From the IMG/VR virus record IMGVR_UViG_3300035698_032533, positions 1-26,296 of that record: a stretch of DNA of 26,296 nucleotides; one strand, 5' to 3'. Both the position numbers and the translations under genes were made by a program. The stretch is from a virus. Below, in pieces: positions 689-12,228 of this stretch. Below the pieces are notes generated by a model that was not told the origin of the DNA, ran no database searches, and was given only the letters and a program-made list of their open reading frames with translations. The stretch's first letter is position 1; every line of letters begins with the position of its first letter.

Positions 689-913
689 TTAAAACCAATG
701 TCCTTGAATTCTTTTTAGCATCTCAATATCACATATTGGCAATACCGCATCCACATTACACTTAGGACAGATGGCTGTTTGATGTCCATCTGTCCATTCG
801 GAGATTTCACTTATATTAAATTCAGCTAAACAGTGATAGCAACTGCACATCCCAGTAAGATGTTTTCTATTCTTCATAGAATCTACAGGTGCTTGACGAA
901 CATAATTATCCAT
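689..913 (-). CDS. Small zinc-ribbon protein
   Basis: This 74-residue protein carries two Cys pairs suited to one zinc site: C-S-C-Y-H-C near residues 23-28 and CPKC near residues 49-52, followed by the hydrophobic stretch DAVLP. The pattern (CxxC, about 20 residues, CPxC, then DAVLP) occurs in small phage and bacterial zinc-ribbon proteins of unknown role. The start overlaps the end of the GIY-YIG endonuclease gene by eight bases, so the two are translationally linked and lie downstream of the portal. It could bind nucleic acid or be a small structural protein. Confidence 0.75.
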   Translation of the reverse strand: MDNYVRQAPVDSMKNRKHLTGMCSCYHCLAEFNISEISEWTDGHQTAICPKCNVDAVLPICDIEMLKRIQGHWF

Positions 914-1760
914 TAAACAAATCCTCTAATCGTTCCAAAACTATTTGATAATCTTCACAATCAAACACTTCGGTTGCTGTTTTTTGGTTCTTGATCTCGG
1001 TGAAGAGTTGAGTACACCCCTCGGTGACTTGATTTCTTATTTTCGCTTCATCATCTTTATGACATTTCCACTTCTTGATAATTCTGGCATTGGGGCAGCA
1101 TCGTTGATGCTGTTTGAGTCTGTTCATCACGTTTCTGGAAAATCCAAGTTTAATGCGATTAGGATTTAGTTCTGGAACAGGCTGAATCATATAAAAGAAA
1201 CCTTCTGATTTCATTTGCATAAGGTATCTTTCCAAATCTGCCGCATCACTTTTTTTAAGAGCCACTTGTGACCTTCCGCCTTTGTCAGATTTAATCTTCG
1301 TGAATTCACAATTGTTCCTATCCACCCACCGTCTCACCACTCTCCAATCTGTGTTGTAGGATTGCAAAATATCTGTGACCGGTATGCAGTTGGTTTCGTG
1401 ATACTCTTGCTTAAATAGCTCTGCATCTTTTTTAGAAACAGCTTGTGCAGGAGGTCCATCAGATCTTCTAAGTTTAGAAACTTTCACACCATTCTTAACA
1501 GCCCAACTACGGATAGTAGCTCTATCCATGCCAACTTCTCTTGATAGATCAGGAATGGAAATCATATCGTCAGGCCAACATGTAGATCGCTTCCAATAAG
1601 AAGAAAACTTATTGGCGTCTTCAGTGGAAACAGCTTGTGTCCACTTGCCATTGCTAATGGCTTTTACCTTATGTAACTTAATGTTATTTTGTTTAATCCA
1701 CTTTCTTATTGTGCAATGATTGCATTGACACTGTTTTGCCAAATCAACAATTATAATCAT
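906..1760 (-). CDS. GIY-YIG (T5orf172-like) homing endonuclease with three HTH repeats
   Basis: The 284-residue protein has two parts. Residues 2-51, 66-115 and 126-177 are three copies of one helix-turn-helix module (pattern TIRKWIKQNN, then AVSTEDA-like), probably DNA-binding. The C-terminal 100 residues look like a diverged GIY-YIG nuclease of the T5orf172 type: FYMIQ (189-193) for GIY, KLGFS (204-208) for YIG, the catalytic-type R214 in NRLKQH, and E264 in TEVFD. It follows the portal stop codon by about 55 bases, and its ribosome site lies in a hairpin with a promoter-like loop (see 1761-1798). A freestanding homing endonuclease is the best reading. GIY residues are degenerate, so activity is uncertain. 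Confidence 0.78.
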   Translation of the reverse strand: MIIIVDLAKQCQCNHCTIRKWIKQNNIKLHKVKAISNGKWTQAVSTEDANKFSSYWKRSTCWPDDMISIPDLSREVGMDRATIRSWAVKNGVKVSKLRRSDGPPAQAVSKKDAELFKQEYHETNCIPVTDILQSYNTDWRVVRRWVDRNNCEFTKIKSDKGGRSQVALKKSDAADLERYLMQMKSEGFFYMIQPVPELNPNRIKLGFSRNVMNRLKQHQRCCPNARIIKKWKCHKDDEAKIRNQVTEGCTQLFTEIKNQKTATEVFDCEDYQIVLERLEDLFNG

Positions 1761-1798
1761 GACTGCCTCCTCCTATTATTATATAGTAAAAGGCAGTC
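1761..1798 (-). promoter_or_regulatory. Hairpin masking the ribosome site, with a promoter-like loop
   Basis: Perfect 8-bp arms (GACTGCCT at 1761-1768 and AGGCAGTC at 1791-1798 on the plus strand) flank a loop holding TATATAAT (minus strand, 1785-1778) and part of the GGAGGAGG ribosome site. One arm touches the endonuclease ATG at 1760. A read-through transcript from the portal gene would hide the ribosome site. A transcript starting inside the loop would lack the 5' arm and leave it free. This matches the known T4 I-TevI arrangement; the function here is inferred. Confidence 0.6.
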
Positions 1799-1814
1799 AA
1801 TTTTCTCTTCTTCA

Positions 1815-4598
1815 TCAATCTATTTCCGAAAAATCAATTTCTTCGTCATCCATTTCTTGGGCGAAATCTTTAATTTCCAGATCATACTTCTGAATATCTT
1901 CTTCTGAAGGTTCTGGAAGGACCATACCACTATTCATAGCGGGAGGTGCCCCTTGTTCAGGTGCCCCACCAGCCATTGGATCTTCGTTGCCATCATCCAT
2001 ATACTTTCGCATACCCTGTGGACCCATGGTTCCACCTTGATCTCCGACAGCACCCATTTCTTGTTCGTCGCCTAACATTGGATTTGGTCCACCCGGCTCG
2101 GAGCCAATTTCGGGTTCATCGGGATTAGGAAGACCGACACCCAGTAAGGTCGGATTTTGGGCAATAATTTGAAGTTTAAGTTCTTCAAGCTTTTGCATCT
2201 TAAGGCGAGCTAACATTTCGTTTGCTTCTTCTTCCGAATACTTCAACCATTTGGTAAGAATATCCCAATCTGATAACAATTGTGAACCTTTAAGATTTGC
2301 AGCATTATTCAATCTATTAGTGGTCACCTCTGCTCTTGTGAGTTCTCGCCAATCTGAAGGTGGCGTCATCTTAATTTCCAGATCTTCGTAGGATTCTTCT
2401 GGATAACCCAAAAGTCGTAAGTGACGATCACAAATATCCCAGAATGCATTTTCAATATGAGACTGTAATCGCTCGATCATACGAGCGAATTTAATATCTT
2501 GAGCCGATAAGCTCACTCGGGTAGCTTGTGCATCCTCATTGTTAAAGTAATTTCTAGGGAAGTTCAAAGCTGTAAATAACTTGTTGCGGAAATACACAGT
2601 ATCATCAATTTCACCAAGGTTTTGGGCACCCGGCAAAGTCTCAACACGGGTGTTGGCATTGGGGCGAATGGGAATCCAATAATCTTCGTCGGCTGCTGGA
2701 GCGTGCCATCTTTCTTCCACAGAAGAGGCACCCGGAGCAGCCCCACGCCCGGTGCCCACTTTCTTCTTTTTGAACTGATCTTTCATTCGTTCGATAAAAG
2801 CCTCAGCTTTGAAAGATGGCATTTGTTGCACGTCAATATAAAATACACGTCGTTCGGGTGCTCTGGTCAAACGATATACCACCATAGCATCTTCCATCAA
2901 TCTCAACTGGTGGGCAGGCCCACGAGCCGCTTCTATAAGACTAATTCCATAGGGGTAGAAAGTCCTACGATCATCCCCAATTTTAATATGGACAACTTGT
3001 TCTGCGGCAAATCGAATAGCAGTAGCTTGTTGAAGATCAGCTTCAGTAGCTTGGGCAATTTCCACACGAGCCAAACTGTTGTAGTCTGGTCCCTCTTTGG
3101 ATTGCTGAAATTCGACTAATTTACCTTTTGTTGTTTCTATCCTATACACGCTATCTGGCGGCAAAGGAGTGAGATTCATGACGCCACTTTTAGGATCTTC
3201 TGGATCAATAACCACCTCATAGAAGAAATCGCCATTAATAAAGAGTCGTTTTGCCATATCCCAAGTTTTGTTTTGGTCAAAGTGCAACATGTTACGATGG
3301 AACAAGAGAAATTCCAATTCTTCTTGCACTTCTTGGTTTGCACAAACTATTTGCATAACTCTGCCATCATCATCTCGTTGGCAATTGTGAACTACTCCCC
3401 AGTCAGTGCAAAAATTGAAATGCTTTTCAACAGACAGATCGAAGACATCGATTTCTTTATGTGGTGATGTTCCTATCACTCTCCTGCGATCTTCTTTTCT
3501 TCCTAACCATTTGACTTCTTTGTTAGAAAATCCAGCACGTTGAATTCGTTCTTGAATGGTTCTCAGATCATTGCCAGTTAATTTCTTGATTTGACGGGTG
3601 GTTAAACCTTCTGCGATCATTTGACAATAATGATTTACCAATCGCAAGTCTTTTCTACTCTTACCAGTAGACCATTCATCTACAAATTGTCGCTCATGTA
3701 CCCAACCTCTGTCGTGCGTCCAAATCCTGGGAAATTGATTGGTATGAAGTCCTGTTAGATCATATCGGGCTGGTTCTCTATAAAACGGCATCAACTCGTG
3801 TCCGTATTCTAGTTCACTAGCTTCAATCCATTTGCCATTTTTCAAAAGTACTCTATGATCAGGCGTACAAATAAAGTGATTGCCATCATCCAGCATTACT
3901 TTGATGGTATGTGCTGTTTTTGTTTTGCGGGGGTTGAATGCCCATCCTAGTGTGTAATCTTTCTTGTCAAAATCATAGCAATAAACTAGGAAACGTTCTT
4001 TTTCTGTTTCGGCTAATTCTCGAATGGTACGAAAACCATGAGGCGTAGCAACTTTGGTGTTACCTGCGAGGCAAGCTTCATCGGCGAATACTGTCATAGC
4101 CATTTCAATTTCGGCCATGTTTCTAAGACGTTCATATTCTTTATATCGATGTAATCGATTGGTTACGGATGAGAGATCAACAAAATCGTTGGTATCTCTT
4201 AGCCGTATGGAGCCACCACCTCCTCCCCATGATCCATTTTGTCCTGCACGGATATCGGGAATTGCATCTGGCTGTGAGACACCAGCACCTACAAAATCAC
4301 GTTGACTCTGCTTGGAGATTGGATCTTCAGTGAATGCATCATCTTATCCATAATTTCTTATGGGACGGACTATATCATCACCCACTTGGGGTGCTGGGCG
4401 CTCTAGCTGGTAATTAAGAGGACTATACCTCTCCAGTAGTCTCTGCACCTTCCTGCGATGTATCGCAGGCTTGGCTCAGGATTGCCCTCGGCATTATCGT
4501 TAGGGTTTCCCTGAATTCACCCAGTCCACTTGCATGATTACTCATGCAAGGCGCTGCTTAATCAACGTGAAAACTTTAAAAAAATCCCACCAGGCCAT
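1815..4598 (-). CDS. Portal protein (T4 gp20-like), split by a group I intron and containing an intein
   Basis: The portal forms the dodecameric ring at the head vertex through which DNA enters. I assemble it as exon 1 (4598-4565, MAWWDFFKVFT plus one base) joined to exon 2 (4342-1815). Together they give 853 residues, or 623 after removal of the 230-residue intein. Exon 1 has a good ribosome site (AAGGAG, seven bases before ATG). The junction restores the frame as ...FTYDAFTEDPIS, removing the in-frame stop at 4344-4346. Portal signatures are VTNRLHRYKEYERLRN, then AEIEMAMTVFADEAC at the intein site, FYEVVIDP, and NYFNNEDA in the stem/clip region. The tail is acidic and Gly/Pro/Met-rich. Starting at the ATG at 4118 would lose about 86 residues and the conserved N-terminus. 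Confidence 0.9.
3384..4073 (-). mobile_element. Intein inside the portal protein (230 residues)
   Basis: The insert starts with Cys (CLAGNTKV, block A), has block B (GNHFICTPDHRVLL, with the T-x-x-H motif near residues 70-73), block F (KEIDVFDLSVEKHFNF) and ends VVHN followed by an extein Cys (block G). These are all the residues needed for standard splicing: Cys1, His/Asn at the end, and Cys+1. The join restores FADEA-CQRDDDG. About 100 residues between blocks B and F are too short for a LAGLIDADG domain. They hold GWVHERQFVDEW, which recalls the start of an HNH domain, and an HTH-like stretch (LTTRQIKKLTGNDLRTI). A small or decayed endonuclease/DNA-binding domain is possible. Confidence 0.93.
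4343..4564 (-). ncRNA. Group I intron in the portal gene, 222 nt, no ORF
   Basis: On the minus strand the core is very close to the tRNA-Leu (IC3-type) introns: GAATTCAGGGAAACCCT, then GGGCAATCCTGAGCCAAG (P3/P4), a P5 hairpin CCTGCGAT/TCGCAGG, GGTGCAGAGACTACTGG (P4-P7 strand), and GATATAGTCC (P7 3' strand). P9 is CCATAA-GAAA-TTATGG, just before the final G at 4343. A 9-bp hairpin (CTTGCATGA/TCATGCAAG) near the 5' end is P2. The 5' splice site after T4565 is inferred because only this phase rejoins the portal frame with the terminal G. P1 is weak (CGU with GCG). No tRNA flanks it. Confidence 0.9.
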
Positions 4599-4674: not shown

Positions 4675-5475
4675 ATGAATGTGCCCGATAATCCTTGTTT
4701 CAAAAACCTGCTTAATCTTAATTTCCACAAATTAACAGTTATCGAATACATGGGTTGTGTTCGTCCAGATAGACCCCGCAAAAAGAATCACCAATGGAAA
4801 TGCAAGTGTGATTGTGGCAATGAGTGTGTGGTTTTAGGCGATAGCCTTAGAAACGGAAACACCCAATCATGTGGATGTTTACAAAAAGAAAGAGCTAGTA
4901 GTACCAAAAGAATAGATCTTACTGGGAAACAGTTTGGCAAACTGACAGTGTTAAATTTTTCACACATCAAGAATGAACAGACGTTTTGGTTATGTGAATG
5001 TGAATGCGGAAATAAGAAATCCATTAATGGTGCAAGTTTACGCAGGGGTGCATCTCAATCTTGTGGTTGTCGTCAAGGCAAGTTTGCTCATGGCATGTGG
5101 GGCAAGCCTGGGTATAAGGCTCACTATTTAAAAGATCCAGTCAAAAAACTAAAGCATATTGTGGGAACATCAGTGAGAGATGCTCTTACAAGAAGAGGTT
5201 CTTCCAAGAATGGCGGAAAAACCTTCGACCATCTTCCATATACTCCCCAGGAACTCAAGAAACATCTTGAGAAACAATTTGAACCTTGGATGACTTGGAA
5301 TAATTATGGAGGAAAAAATAACAATCCCGAAAAGACTTGGCAGATTGACCACATCAAAGCTCAATCTTCTTACTCTTTTACTTCGATGGATGAAGAGCAA
5401 TTTCAAGAATGTTGGGCATTGGAAAATTTGAGGCCCTTAGAAAAGATTGAGAACATCACGAAAGGCGTGAAATGA
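4675..5475 (+). CDS. Freestanding HNH homing endonuclease with two zinc-ribbon repeats
   Basis: The 266-residue protein starts at ATG 4675 with GGAG five to six bases upstream; the open frame further left overlaps the portal exon and intron on the other strand and is not coding. Two copies of a module (G-x-L-T-V, about 15 residues, W-x-C-x-C-x-CG, then SCGC) occupy residues 16-68 and 83-132 and look like zinc-bound DNA-recognition repeats. The C-terminal HNH domain has WQIDHIKAQSSYSF (D225-H226), CWALENLRPL (N251) and N260. It lies outside the portal intron, opposite to the portal gene and 76 bases from its start, so it may help move the ORF-less intron. It overlaps the next gene by ATGA. Confidence 0.85.
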   Translation: MNVPDNPCFKNLLNLNFHKLTVIEYMGCVRPDRPRKKNHQWKCKCDCGNECVVLGDSLRNGNTQSCGCLQKERASSTKRIDLTGKQFGKLTVLNFSHIKNEQTFWLCECECGNKKSINGASLRRGASQSCGCRQGKFAHGMWGKPGYKAHYLKDPVKKLKHIVGTSVRDALTRRGSSKNGGKTFDHLPYTPQELKKHLEKQFEPWMTWNNYGGKNNNPEKTWQIDHIKAQSSYSFTSMDEEQFQECWALENLRPLEKIENITKGVK

Positions 5476-5840
5476 AACGAATACTCTTTATCATGAGTCA
5501 CCCAGAAGCTGATTTAAAAGAATTGACCACTTGCTTGGAAACTCACCCCAATATCTCTTGTTTTTTAACAGGACAGGGCTATCATCACCCTGATGACTTG
5601 GAATATTTAACTGCTCAAATTCACAAGAAAGACAATTCAGCGGCCATCTGGGCTGACATGATCCTTCACAACAAGGACTTTTCCTGTCGAGCATTAACCC
5701 AATGTTGTCATTTTCTTTACTGGGCACAGAATCCCACAGAATATCGAATGGCTGGTTTGAAACAATGGTTCAAGAGGACGGGTGGTTTGTGGAATCCAGT
5801 TCTAACAGAAATCAATTCTTTTTTTGAAACCGCTTTTTGA
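5472..5840 (+). CDS. Unidentified 122-residue protein, translationally coupled to the HNH gene
   Basis: The ATG overlaps the HNH stop codon (ATGA), so the pair form a small operon. The protein begins MKRILFIMSHPEADL, a short beta strand followed by a turn, and has D-x-I-L-H-N-K (near residue 62) and a Cys pair (CRALTQCC). The layout faintly recalls small sulfotransferase-like phage proteins, but the phosphosulfate-binding loop is not convincing. Its last 39 bases overlap the end of the convergent 2H phosphoesterase gene. I cannot assign a function. Confidence 0.6.
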   Translation: MKRILFIMSHPEADLKELTTCLETHPNISCFLTGQGYHHPDDLEYLTAQIHKKDNSAAIWADMILHNKDFSCRALTQCCHFLYWAQNPTEYRMAGLKQWFKRTGGLWNPVLTEINSFFETAF

Positions 5841-6356
5841 GGAGAACACAACATGATCAGTTGAAATCTTCTTTCCAGCCCAAAGCTCTAAATTTTTATG
5901 TTTCCAGCCTTTACCTTTTTTCACATAAGCGATAGTCAGATGGGGCTGATAATCTCCATATCTTTCAGTGTAGGGAACCGTAGTGGCCAACTTCTTGTTT
6001 AATCTTTCGAGGTCTTCGCTGATTACATTAATTACCACCACATCAAACTTAGCCGGATTGGTGAAAATCTCGACCCGTCCTAACCGCACTTGAATAGGTC
6101 GTTCTTTTTTAAAGAGAGCTTCTACTTGGTCAGGTTTATTGGAATGTAGTCCATAGAGAATGGTAATATGGATCTCGTCTTCTCGACCGAATGTAGGTTC
6201 GGTTTGACTTACGAAGATATCATCATCAGAGATATGTTCTCTTCCCCACTTGATGATTTCATCTGAAAGAGGGTTGGCGACATCAATATGCACTGAAGAA
6301 AAACTATAATTAACATTTTGCATTTGAGGATATTTAGCAGAAATAGCCTCAATCAT
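5802..6356 (-). CDS. 2H phosphoesterase (LigT / 2'-5' RNA ligase family)
   Basis: Two H-x-T motifs mark the family: HIT at 63-65 (EIHITILYG) and HLT at 139-141 (YQPHLTIAYV). The length of 184 residues is typical, and the C-terminal strand VVFSSKSGFKK is usual for LigT folds. Such enzymes cut or form 2'-5' or cyclic phosphate bonds in nucleotides and RNA; in phages some degrade host signalling nucleotides or process RNA. The substrate here cannot be told. The start overlaps the stop of the preceding gene by eight bases. A start at the ATG of residue 12 is possible. It lies between terminase and portal. Confidence 0.88.
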   Translation of the reverse strand: MIEAISAKYPQMQNVNYSFSSVHIDVANPLSDEIIKWGREHISDDDIFVSQTEPTFGREDEIHITILYGLHSNKPDQVEALFKKERPIQVRLGRVEIFTNPAKFDVVVINVISEDLERLNKKLATTVPYTERYGDYQPHLTIAYVKKGKGWKHKNLELWAGKKISTDHVVFSSKSGFKKRIDFC

Positions 6357-6726
6357 TCAAAATTTCCGGGTTGGTTTCTTGGGATTGCTTTTCCAATTGG
6401 TCCAATTTACTCAACTTTGCTTTTTCAGCTTCGATCATAGCGTTCAATTGAGCCAATGATCGTTGTTGAGCTTCTGGAGTCATGGGTGATGCTGCTAGTT
6501 GAGCGGTACCTGCCTCAATATTCCCCCACCAACCCTGAAATTGATCTTGTGTCATCTTTTTTCTTTCTTCTTGTTTTTTAGATACCCGATCTAATTTTTT
6601 AATAGCTCTACGTATGTCTCCACGAGCTTCAGATACAGCTTGATTGTTGGGCATTGAATTGTATGCCACGTTCAAAGCTTGGCTCAAAAGGTTCTTAGCC
6701 ACATCAAGTTGTTTAATGTTTTTCAT
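6349..6726 (-). CDS. Helical charged protein between terminase and portal
   Basis: This 125-residue protein is almost wholly alpha-helical by composition, with Lys/Glu-rich segments (residues 45-60) and a C-terminal coiled-coil-like stretch (NAMIEAEKAKLSKLDQLEK). It contains the short motif FQGWWGNI near residue 64. It starts four bases before the stop of the upstream endonuclease gene (ATGA-type overlap) and overlaps the phosphoesterase start. Position suggests a head-assembly or packaging accessory protein; no family is recognised. Confidence 0.7.
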   Translation of the reverse strand: MKNIKQLDVAKNLLSQALNVAYNSMPNNQAVSEARGDIRRAIKKLDRVSKKQEERKKMTQDQFQGWWGNIEAGTAQLAASPMTPEAQQRSLAQLNAMIEAEKAKLSKLDQLEKQSQETNPEILND

Positions 6727-7829
6727 CTTTCCTCACATTTTCTTTCAAAATAATTCATTCCCTTATCGCTTTTATCTATACCCTTGGCGACATGTCCCAA
6801 TTCACTATATTTAGGGAAACGACCTAACCGTTGAATTACAGTTTTCAACTCGGCAATTACATTCTGTTCGTTGTTCCAGTAACCGTATGGTCGTTTGGTC
6901 CTTTTGCCTGTGACAACTTCTTTGAAATAACCATAACCTCCATGGGTTTTAATAGAACTAGCTAAATCACTACGTTTGATTTTTTGCAACTCACGATCAC
7001 AAGGAAAATGCCCAAGAGATTTAGCAACAGACTTTAATTCAGCGATAATTCTGTCCTTAGAAAATTCTTTGGTTTTAGGAATGCAATTGAGTAATTTAGA
7101 AAAATAACGAAATCCACCAAAATTACGTATTGCACGAATCAAGTCATCTCTTTTTATGTTTCTTAATTGGTTAGACGTAGGCATATCTCCAATTTCATTG
7201 ATAATTTCCCGAAGTTCTTTTAAAACAGTTTTTTCATTCCAGTAATCTAATTTTCTTCGATTAAATATGGGGTACTTGACTTGTTTATCATTTGACAAAA
7301 TGCCAAATTGGTTCAATTTGTTTTTGAATAAAGTTTGCAGTTCGTCGGAATTCAATTTGAAATCGGCACCTTCAAGTGATAATAAATCAAGATGGTGTTG
7401 TTTGTATAATTTCTCTTTTAACTTCCTTCGTTCACCATAATTATTGTAATATTTGCTACCTGCTGAACTTATGCCCCAAATTTCGATATACACATTTTTT
7501 ATCTTAAAGTCATAGCGGCATTTACTTCCGCTACAAATAAAGTCATCTGTGTCATGAGGAATATTGTTCAAAAACAAATATTCATCAAAAAGATATTCGT
7601 AATAACTTGAAAGAATATGCCCATCAGAAGCCTTGTGGGATTTTCTTATATTTAATCCAGCTTGTGATACCACACATGGATAACCTCCAAGGACTTTTAT
7701 TCCTTGGGTAAAAGCTCGACCATGTTCTTTATACATGATTGTATATCCGGGCACAAAACCTTTATCGGCAATTTTGTTTAGATAATTTTTCGCTGATTCT
7801 ATGTCTTTCCAAATATTTTTAGTATCCAT
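6723..7829 (-). CDS. Probable homing endonuclease, PD-(D/E)XK-like core with three repeats
   Basis: I place the start at ATG 7829 (368 residues). The open frame reaches back to 7916, but that part overlaps the terminase end and a hairpin. Residues 76-121 read YYEYLFDEYLFLNNI...KCRYDFKIKNVYIEIWG, matching the Vsr/EDxHD-type nuclease pattern (D107 in YDF, E116 in YIEIWG). Residues 198-247, 258-306 and 320-368 are three copies of a DNA-binding repeat of the homing-endonuclease-associated kind (ELKxVxxxLGxFPxxxEL, then GGYGYF). It directly follows the terminase gene, as homing genes in phages often do. No GIY-YIG, HNH or LAGLIDADG motif is seen. Confidence 0.72.
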   Translation of the reverse strand: MDTKNIWKDIESAKNYLNKIADKGFVPGYTIMYKEHGRAFTQGIKVLGGYPCVVSQAGLNIRKSHKASDGHILSSYYEYLFDEYLFLNNIPHDTDDFICSGSKCRYDFKIKNVYIEIWGISSAGSKYYNNYGERRKLKEKLYKQHHLDLLSLEGADFKLNSDELQTLFKNKLNQFGILSNDKQVKYPIFNRRKLDYWNEKTVLKELREIINEIGDMPTSNQLRNIKRDDLIRAIRNFGGFRYFSKLLNCIPKTKEFSKDRIIAELKSVAKSLGHFPCDRELQKIKRSDLASSIKTHGGYGYFKEVVTGKRTKRPYGYWNNEQNVIAELKTVIQRLGRFPKYSELGHVAKGIDKSDKGMNYFERKCEER

Positions 7830-7844
7830 ACCATATAATAGTAT

Positions 7845-7879
7845 GTTGCCCTCCAAATTCTCGAAGAATTTTTGGCAAC
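7845..7879 (-). promoter_or_regulatory. Hairpin after the terminase stop, before the endonuclease gene
   Basis: Arms GTTGCC (7845-7850) and GGCAAC (7874-7879) enclose a second hairpin, AAATTCT (7855-7861) and AGAATTT (7865-7871), with a three-base loop. It begins six bases after the terminase stop codon and contains a GGAGG that could be hidden by folding. An AT-rich ACTATTATATGG follows just before the ATG at 7829. It may limit read-through translation of the endonuclease or act as a weak terminator. Confidence 0.45.
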
Positions 7880-7884
7880 AATTA

Positions 7885-9705
7885 TCACCACCCGAACTCA
7901 CGAAGTAACTTATCATTTTTACGTTTAAACCCAGAAGAAATACTTGGAAAATTATCCGATCTATTCATCAACTCAAGTAATTCTGCATCGTCAGGATTGA
8001 GCCATTCTTCCGGCATTCCTTTCACCAATTCTTCTTTAATTTCCTCCATGATTTCCGCTTTAAACGCTTCAGTGAATTCTTCTTCTGAACCTGCTCCTAC
8101 AGGAACATGTCGCATTCGAGAGTCACGAGCGTACAAAGCGAGACACAAAGCCATAATCGCATCATCGTGAAAACCCTTTGATGCTTCTGCTTTTCTTGTT
8201 TGAGCATTCCATATAAACCCTTTAAGTTCTTTCACAAAACGCCGACTTCGAATAGCAATACTTCTATTAATCAAGCGAGTTTGCATGGTTTCCAAGAATT
8301 TTGACCGATTACTTTGTGTTGTCTTGATGCCAGGATTGAGATTCTTACCAGCGCCTTGAGTGCTTTCAAAGATATTATCATAAGCGAATTCGTGCAACAA
8401 CTTTTCTAAAATCAACAAACCTACACTTTGGCTCTCCACTACGATACAAGCACTATTGTAAGTTTGTCCAATCATGACTAACACTTGTGCAAAATTGTGT
8501 GGTGGCACTTCGCTACTGTAAAATTCAGCTACCTGTTCGCAAGTCACTGCATCAATTACCTCAAAACAACAATTATCACCTTCTTCTCCCATACCTTCGG
8601 CACCATCTGTTCCGATGATATAATCTCTGCCATCAACTGGTTCTCGCCAAATATGGAGAGCACCTTTTTGAAAATCCTCTGCTCTTGCTTGTTCTCGGAT
8701 TTCATCAAGATTATTCCAATGTGGGAAAAGCCGACGAAGGGGATCTATTTCTCGGGTAGTAAGATCGAGATCATTAATGATTTCTGGATCAATGTAAGAA
8801 TCACCAGCGCCCAAGAAGTCACGCATAACTTCTTGCAACCAACCTTTTTCACCAAGTTGTGCCCGAGTTTGTTTGACCCAATCTTCATCGTCATAGTCTG
8901 GATGTTCCCAGTAATCGAGTTCGATAATATTGAAGTCGTTTTGGGGTGGTCGTTTTTCTGCTCCTTTGAAAATGTCATAATACCAATTGCCGACACCATT
9001 GACCGTAGACACACAGATGCAATGTCCACCAGTACTGATCGTGGGGAACATAGCTTTCCAGTGTTTGTCCATTTGTGGAATGAACGCAGCTTCATCCAAA
9101 ATAAGATAAGTAATGGATCTACCACGAGCGGCTTCCGGGGTATAGAAAAACAACTTACAACCAGTATCAGAAAAGATTTTCTGGTGATCGTTGTTTTTCT
9201 CCATTTCAGGTCTCATCCAATGGGGCAATTCCTGCATGGCACGTTTTACAATTTCTCCAGCAGCAATGGCTTCACGATCAGACTTAGACAAAACCATAAT
9301 AGTTTCATCTAGTTTGAACAAGCATCGCCACAAAGACCAAATTACCGTAATGGTTGTCAGACCACCTTGACGGAATTTAGAAAGAATATTGAAACGATGT
9401 TTCTCATATTCTGAGATCACTCGTTTCTGATACTTATAGATGATGAAAGGAACTAATCCTCTTTTTGGGTGGGCGATCTTAACATACTTATGACAGAAGT
9501 ATGAGAAAGACATTGCACACTTAATCAGCTCTTTTTGTCGAACTTCAGGTGTGTATTCCTCGATGTCCTCGAAAGGTTCCATCGGGTCAACTTCCATCTC
9601 ATATTTGTTAAACGAATAATATTTGGAATCATATTCATTGAGATAAAACTCTGTTAAATCAGAATATCTTCCCCTCCAATTAGGATCTATATCTTTAAAC
9701 GGCAT
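7885..9705 (-). CDS. terL: Terminase large subunit (T4 gp17-like packaging ATPase/nuclease)
   Basis: The 606-residue protein starts at ATG 9705 (GGAGG nine bases upstream), not at the further-upstream frame start. The ATPase half has a Walker A-like loop SKFRQGGLTT (109-118), Walker B LILDEA (201-206) and coupling motif VSTVNG (232-237). The nuclease half has IIGTDGAEG (D367), VVESQS (E424) and FHDDAIMAL (D514/D515), the RNase H-fold metal ligands. Length equals T4 gp17 (610). It drives DNA into the head through the portal and cuts the concatemer. The Walker A loop lacks the usual lysine before TT (T4 has LGKTT). It heads the packaging block, and an endonuclease gene follows directly. Confidence 0.96.
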   Translation of the reverse strand: MPFKDIDPNWRGRYSDLTEFYLNEYDSKYYSFNKYEMEVDPMEPFEDIEEYTPEVRQKELIKCAMSFSYFCHKYVKIAHPKRGLVPFIIYKYQKRVISEYEKHRFNILSKFRQGGLTTITVIWSLWRCLFKLDETIMVLSKSDREAIAAGEIVKRAMQELPHWMRPEMEKNNDHQKIFSDTGCKLFFYTPEAARGRSITYLILDEAAFIPQMDKHWKAMFPTISTGGHCICVSTVNGVGNWYYDIFKGAEKRPPQNDFNIIELDYWEHPDYDDEDWVKQTRAQLGEKGWLQEVMRDFLGAGDSYIDPEIINDLDLTTREIDPLRRLFPHWNNLDEIREQARAEDFQKGALHIWREPVDGRDYIIGTDGAEGMGEEGDNCCFEVIDAVTCEQVAEFYSSEVPPHNFAQVLVMIGQTYNSACIVVESQSVGLLILEKLLHEFAYDNIFESTQGAGKNLNPGIKTTQSNRSKFLETMQTRLINRSIAIRSRRFVKELKGFIWNAQTRKAEASKGFHDDAIMALCLALYARDSRMRHVPVGAGSEEEFTEAFKAEIMEEIKEELVKGMPEEWLNPDDAELLELMNRSDNFPSISSGFKRKNDKLLREFGW

Positions 9706-11735: not shown

Positions 11736-11767
11736 ATAAACAAAGCCCCGCAAGGGGCTTTGTTTAT
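11736..11767 (+). terminator. Rho-independent terminator
   Basis: A perfect 14-bp stem (ATAAACAAAGCCCC with its complement) closes a GCAA tetraloop and ends in a T-rich tract on the plus strand; the reverse strand also ends in T's. It stands between the WYL-like gene and the next rightward gene, whose ribosome site (AAGGAG) follows immediately. Confidence 0.88.
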
Positions 11768-11781
11768 TTAAGGAGAAAGAT

Positions 11782-12228
11782 ATGTATGAAAAGTTCTTAA
11801 AACGATTACAGCAAATCAGAGAGTGTGAGGGGAACAATTACGACCTCACAATACATGAAGAAAAAGCGTTTCAAAGAGGTGTGCGTGAAGGAGAAACTGT
11901 TTTAGAGGCGATTGCACGCAACATGGTGGAGGTTCTAGAAGAAAAGGATTCAGATCAAGCCAATCCTGTTCCTTACCTTTCATGGGATGCTCAAGTAAGT
12001 TTTGAGCACAAGGGTTTTGGTCCACAAATTGTCAATTTGCCAGGGGTTTTGGGGCATACTCCCGAAGAGGCCCAAGAAGCTGCTGGAAGAGAATTTGAGC
12101 AAAACATGTCGGACTATGCTGATGAAGATAATGTGACCAAATGGGAAGTTAGAGTTCGTCCCTCGTCCCTCACAAAATGCGACAAATCATCGAAGAGTTC
12201 GTTCAGTCCCTCCGATCCGACATATTGA
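11782..12228 (+). CDS. Unidentified 148-residue protein
   Basis: The ATG at 11782 has AAGGAG seven bases upstream. The N-terminal 50 residues are helical and charged. Residues 64-115 alternate strands and helix (YLSWDAQVSFEHKGFG, then HTPEEAQEAAGREFEQNM). This recalls HicB-like small domains, where a beta sheet is followed by a helix that begins with EEA, but the match is weak. The last 20 residues are Ser/Lys-rich. A bidirectional terminator follows. Confidence 0.65.
   Translation: MYEKFLKRLQQIRECEGNNYDLTIHEEKAFQRGVREGETVLEAIARNMVEVLEEKDSDQANPVPYLSWDAQVSFEHKGFGPQIVNLPGVLGHTPEEAQEAAGREFEQNMSDYADEDNVTKWEVRVRPSSLTKCDKSSKSSFSPSDPTY

Follow-up and report, generated by a model that had tools for sequence, protein, structure and literature searches.

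A ribosome-site-hiding RNA hairpin before a probable homing endonuclease gene behind a T4-type portal gene

Several phage endonuclease genes are preceded by an RNA hairpin that sequesters the ribosome-binding site (RBS), an arrangement reviewed for I-TevI, I-TevII and I-TevIII and for the free-standing enzymes SegB of T4 and MobE of Aeromonas phage Aeh1 (PMC2988022). I-TevI and I-TevII are encoded within group I introns (td and nrdD) of early or middle genes. In their leaders a stem hides the Shine-Dalgarno (SD) sequence and the start region on read-through RNA, and a TATA-type promoter, late in T4 and reading TATAAATA or a near variant, is located in the left arm or loop. T4 late promoters comprise an 8-bp TATA box approximately one helical turn before the transcription start, without a -35 element (PMC2988020). 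I-TevI is also autorepressed, as it binds over its own late promoter (PMC2988022). The segB gene is found in the tRNA region and its late promoter is a predicted one (PMC2988022), whilst mobE belongs to the HNH family, is inserted in nrdA and carries a hairpin that lowers translation (reviewed in PMC2988022, PMC3014915). The lysozyme gene e of T4, a resident phage gene that does not encode an endonuclease, likewise has its SD and AUG in a stem; its late promoters (TATAAATA) lie at -34 and -21 and the left arm is missing from its late RNA (PMC3014915). Known hairpin-controlled endonucleases share their transcripts with genes for early or middle products, a trait common to them (PMC2988022) but not strictly required for the mechanism.

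The window analysed here is a 26-kb fragment (26,296 nucleotides) of an uncultured virus. Its minus strand carries a probable free-standing homing endonuclease gene of 284 codons (906-1760) and, upstream of it, a T4-type portal gene of the gp20 family, of which most of exon 2, intein included, spans 1815-4118. The N-terminus of the endonuclease contains several helix-turn-helix repeats and its C-terminal domain weakly resembles the GIY-YIG superfamily. Profile searches with all three homologues (see below) returned weak matches to MUG113 (E 3.5e-4, just under the MUG113 cut-off) and T5orf172 (best E 2.3e-3), and from its sequence the protein is probably a GIY-YIG endonuclease. A structure model and fold search were uninformative, the C-terminal domain being too poorly modelled. 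The annotated phage collection contained no match to the protein, and no sequence relation to T4 SegB was found.

Relatives of the portal are numerous in viral contigs, several of them in records of 100-527 kb. Among 80 portal relatives, a homologue of the endonuclease is located right behind the portal gene in three loci, L002, L012 and L025. The latter two are identical in the leader and protein shown, so that only two distinct homologue sequences are represented, 57% and 49% identical to the window endonuclease. Many other relatives lack the endonuclease, and in these the portal stop overlaps or adjoins a small gene; in the window this gene (689-913, minus strand) follows the endonuclease, its start overlapping the endonuclease stop at ATGGATAA. 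Because many relatives join the portal directly to the small gene, the endonuclease gene and the 54-nt leader before it give the impression of a cassette inserted there, and its distribution among the 80 relatives is sporadic and insertion-like, as for a homing endonuclease.

The portal gene also harbours a 230-residue intein (3384-4073, minus strand). All portal relatives tested with a contig reaching that position have it at this site, with 41-75% identity, and the intein looks fixed in the phage group. A link between endonuclease and intein was considered and rejected, since the intein occurs in every tested relative with coverage and the endonuclease in three loci. In addition, the portal gene is split by an ORF-less group I intron (4338-4565, minus strand; Rfam RF00028 at 4347-4573), with exon 1 (MAWWDFFKVFT) at 4598-4566 and exon 2 starting at 4337; the portal genes of L002 and L012 are uninterrupted at this intron site. 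Beside the intron is an HNH-type gene on the plus strand (4534 or 4675 to 5475), and the two possibly form a collaborative-homing pair. Other genes of the window include a second probable homing gene (HNH_repeat; 6723-7916, minus strand), which overlaps the terminase end, shows no hairpin occlusion and has a copy with 66% identity near position 1297 of L002, and a gene for a 2'-5' RNA ligase-superfamily protein (5802-6356, minus strand) that matches the anti-CBASS protein Acb1.

The portal stop codon (1817-1815) is followed, after 15 nt, by an RNA hairpin (1760-1799, minus strand), into which the portal transcript would read through. The hairpin-forming sequence, TGACTGCCTTTTACTATATAATAATAGGAGGAGGCAGTCATG, runs from 1799 on the minus strand, and the ATG of the endonuclease is at 1760. 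In the fold, an 11-bp stem with two G-U pairs (U1799-A1760 to U1789-G1770) encloses an inner 4-bp helix (C1786-G1773 to U1783-A1776) around a 6-nt loop. An earlier note on this DNA had described perfect 8-base arms, and these are present as claimed at 1761-1768 and 1791-1798, within an RNA stem that is somewhat longer. An RNA with its 5' end within the loop does not contain the left (5') arm region, TGACTGCCTTTT (1788-1799). Two overlapping SD sequences, AGGAGGAGG (1766-1774), provide AGGAGG copies at 1774-1769 and 1771-1766, situated 8 and 5 nt before the AUG respectively; both copies, together with the A of the AUG, take part almost entirely in base pairs. The fold energy is -23.1 kcal/mol for 81 nt (z = -5.7) and was reached by none of 200 shuffles, and the hairpin is confirmed as real and beyond chance. 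A stable hairpin in the read-through RNA thus pairs the SD and start, as in RBS-hairpin control of the T4 type.

The degree of occlusion was expressed as an opening cost, the free energy for unpairing about -14 to +3 around a start codon, and compared with shuffles of the upstream part only, in which the SD to +20 was left fixed. For the endonuclease start this cost is 20.3 kcal/mol, reached by none of 1000 shuffles. It ranks first among the 21 predicted starts of the window and second among the 547 starts of the window and the 80 portal relatives, where the sole start above it looks like a misplaced one inside a terminator-like hairpin. The value is higher than those of four T4 positive controls, I-TevI (13.4), I-TevII (14.9), segB (15.1) and e (16.0 kcal/mol), each reached by none of 300 shuffles; the remaining eleven T4 starts tested required 1.0-5.0 kcal/mol and none was unusual against its own shuffles. 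One of these eleven, I-TevIII, failed as a positive control: T4 carries a deleted copy, whose annotated start gave 3.5 kcal/mol. Since this gene is reviewed as hairpin-controlled, the metric is an incomplete detector. In the window, occlusion relative to shuffles was absent from the portal, the small downstream gene, the terminase and the other endonuclease ORFs. The hidden ribosome site proposed in the earlier note is therefore borne out by the fold, the start ranks and the shuffles, and is stronger than in T4's own hairpin-controlled genes; the strength of the hairpin is the best-supported part of the whole picture. A separate 14-bp perfect hairpin at 11736-11767 immediately precedes the SD of a gene located at 11782, leaves that SD uncovered and resembles the seg43(25) hairpin in layout (PMC2988022).

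Both distinct homologues also fold over their own start codons, using arms unrelated to those of the window: AUUAUAGAU/AUCUAUGAU in L002 and UAUCAUA..GUU/AAC..UAUGAUA in L012. These hairpins are much weaker, with opening costs of 9.9 and 7.1 kcal/mol (37th and 98th of 547) that were reached by 1 and 23 of 1000 shuffles respectively. Because the kind of occlusion persists although the arms change in sequence, the comparison points to an RNA-level function rather than a conserved DNA operator. When the window's arms were sought in viral contigs, 87 stretches were obtained. Of 174 oriented occurrences, 46 had some start triplet within 6 nt, and among the ones of these listed, inspection by eye revealed none with the SD-and-TATA layout. 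Arms of this length recur by chance.

A promoter-like box, TATATAAT (1778-1785, minus strand), is situated within the hairpin. It is not accompanied by a sigma-70 -35 element, no sigma-70 promoter is listed at the hairpin on the minus strand, and the T4 late promoter TATAAATA is absent from the window. The box matches a strand-specific upstream motif of the phage group. In 354 upstream regions, the set left after removal of near-duplicates, TATATAA is found 32 times in the forward and twice in the reverse orientation, and [AC]TATATAA 26 times and never, compared with 13 and 14 for plain TATAAT. Three of the four TATATAA copies in the window are upstream of same-strand genes, and approximately 0.004 copies would be expected by chance in such a leader. 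A TATA-like element stands 12-13 nt before the SD in the window and in both distinct homologues (CTATATAATAAT, CTATTATAGATAA and CTATCATAAGTTA), the boxes of the two homologues being off-consensus. Relative to the AUG, the window box is at -25, compared with -26 for the late promoter of T4 I-TevII and -21 for that of e. If the geometry of T4 late promoters is applied to TATATAAT, RNA would start near 1772 and the left arm would be missing. The predicted RNA would have a leader of only about 12 nt and an opening cost of 1.7 kcal/mol, versus 19.0 kcal/mol for the read-through RNA. A promoter inside the hairpin is likely from the sequence, and, by analogy with T4, it is possibly of the late (gp55) class. 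Of the earlier proposal of a late promoter in the loop, the box and its match to a directional group motif were upheld; the late class found no support, and the box is not T4's TATAAATA.

A gp55-like late sigma factor (phrog_234) is encoded by seven of nine large relatives. No gp55 was found in the 234-kb relative that carries an endonuclease homologue, where TATATAAT is rare (one copy), and sigma family phrog_12791 gave no matches, controls included. The gp55-like family of seven large relatives (L202-L208) has a conserved EYLNN..FE N-terminus and escapes phmmer when T4 gp55 is the only query. In the 234-kb relative (L172-L183, G001), the regions upstream of genes are strongly enriched in TTGACAC/TGACACC/GACACCC. 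A different element, TAATAACTA, is common to the portal upstream regions of L003, L005, L007, L010, L016 and others, roughly 30-60 nt before the portal start and followed in several relatives by GGTAACA; it is possibly a second promoter type or an operator. As the portals of close relatives carry TAATAACTA upstream, promoters of more than one type may be in use in the group.

In common with I-TevI and I-TevII, the window gene has a stem that hides the SD and start region on read-through RNA, a TATA-type box in the left arm or loop and, probably, a GIY-YIG product. Unlike these two it is free-standing behind a portal gene, and its box is TATATAAT in place of their TATAAATA or near variant of it. 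It shares with segB a free-standing position, an RBS-hiding hairpin and, probably, the GIY-YIG family, although segB differs in its genomic location. By description it can be likened to mobE, also a free-standing endonuclease gene with an RBS-sequestering hairpin, and the burial of SD and AUG in a stem is shared with e, despite the resident status of that gene. The earlier note saw convergence in the occurrence of this arrangement in an unrelated endonuclease; however, it had already been described in unrelated endonucleases (PMC2988022), and the window hairpin is a further example of the known T4 device, not a new convergence.

On balance, we favour, with some reserve, a lock on translation that acts in cis, as for I-TevI and SegB of T4, and controls a probable homing-endonuclease cassette; the gene's own RNA would escape from this lock. 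The cassette would have entered between the portal gene and the gene that usually comes next. Portal read-through RNA is predicted to fold such that the SD and start codon are buried, at a cost of about 19-20 kcal/mol to open, whilst the site is open (1.7 kcal/mol) in RNA that begins just downstream of TATATAAT and lacks the left arm. Were TATATAAT a phage promoter making this short RNA, the endonuclease would be translated mainly from its own transcript. The portal is a late gene in T4-type phages, and from this knowledge of T4 it is presumed to be late here. With a presumed late portal gene upstream, the likely purpose is insulation from heavy portal read-through, with a low endonuclease dose, rather than a delay to late infection. 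The timing control proposed in the earlier note is weakened by this position, given that the known cases are located on early or middle transcripts. A true T4-like timing switch would require additional early or middle transcription of the portal region, and the lock would delay the endonuclease until the late sigma factor became active. It has in its favour a layout the same as that of I-TevI and I-TevII and the gp55-like proteins of the phage group, but the portal upstream is at odds with the early- or middle-product transcripts of the described systems (PMC2988022), and we regard such a switch as rather unlikely. Insulation from portal read-through fits better than early/late timing as the purpose of the lock.

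It is similarly doubtful that the hairpin is a plain translational damper with no internal promoter, the endonuclease being made by rare translation of portal read-through as the stem breathes and the TATA box being an AT-rich coincidence. Such a damper draws on the hairpin's strength and on the off-consensus boxes of the two homologues; against it stand the low chance expectation of TATATAA in such a leader, the strong directionality of this motif in the group and a box position that matches the T4 I-TevII and e promoters. The inverted repeat could instead be a DNA operator to which the endonuclease binds through its helix-turn-helix repeats, a form of autorepression for which I-TevI, acting over its late promoter, offers a precedent (PMC2988022), and the centres of the two arms are separated by 30 bp. 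This explanation is quite improbable, as in homologues that are 49-57% identical the arms are unrelated, pairing being kept and not sequence, although a DNA operator and an RNA lock could coexist. Least probable, and very much so, is a role of the hairpin in terminating transcription of the portal message, or in processing or stabilising that RNA. A stable stem does follow directly on the stop codon, and a T-rich stretch follows the stem on the opposite (plus) strand. However, no U-run follows the stem in the sense direction, the hairpin is absent from the terminator scan list, the stem takes in the following gene's SD and start codon and, at 11 bp, it is short for RNase III.

More generally, and tentatively, the translational lock and its candidate promoter might constitute a portable module that frees the cassette from whichever operon it invades, late structural operons included. 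The arms would turn over freely between homologues whilst occlusion is kept, for insulation and dose control and not for T4-style timing. So far described mainly in T4-like phages that infect enterobacteria and Aeromonas, this form of control now extends to an uncultured group of large phages with a T4-type portal. It also lies behind a presumed late structural gene, a position for which timing, the usual explanation, does not obviously apply, and whether such hairpins serve timing or insulation becomes a testable question. In addition, TATATAA emerges as a candidate promoter element for this phage group.
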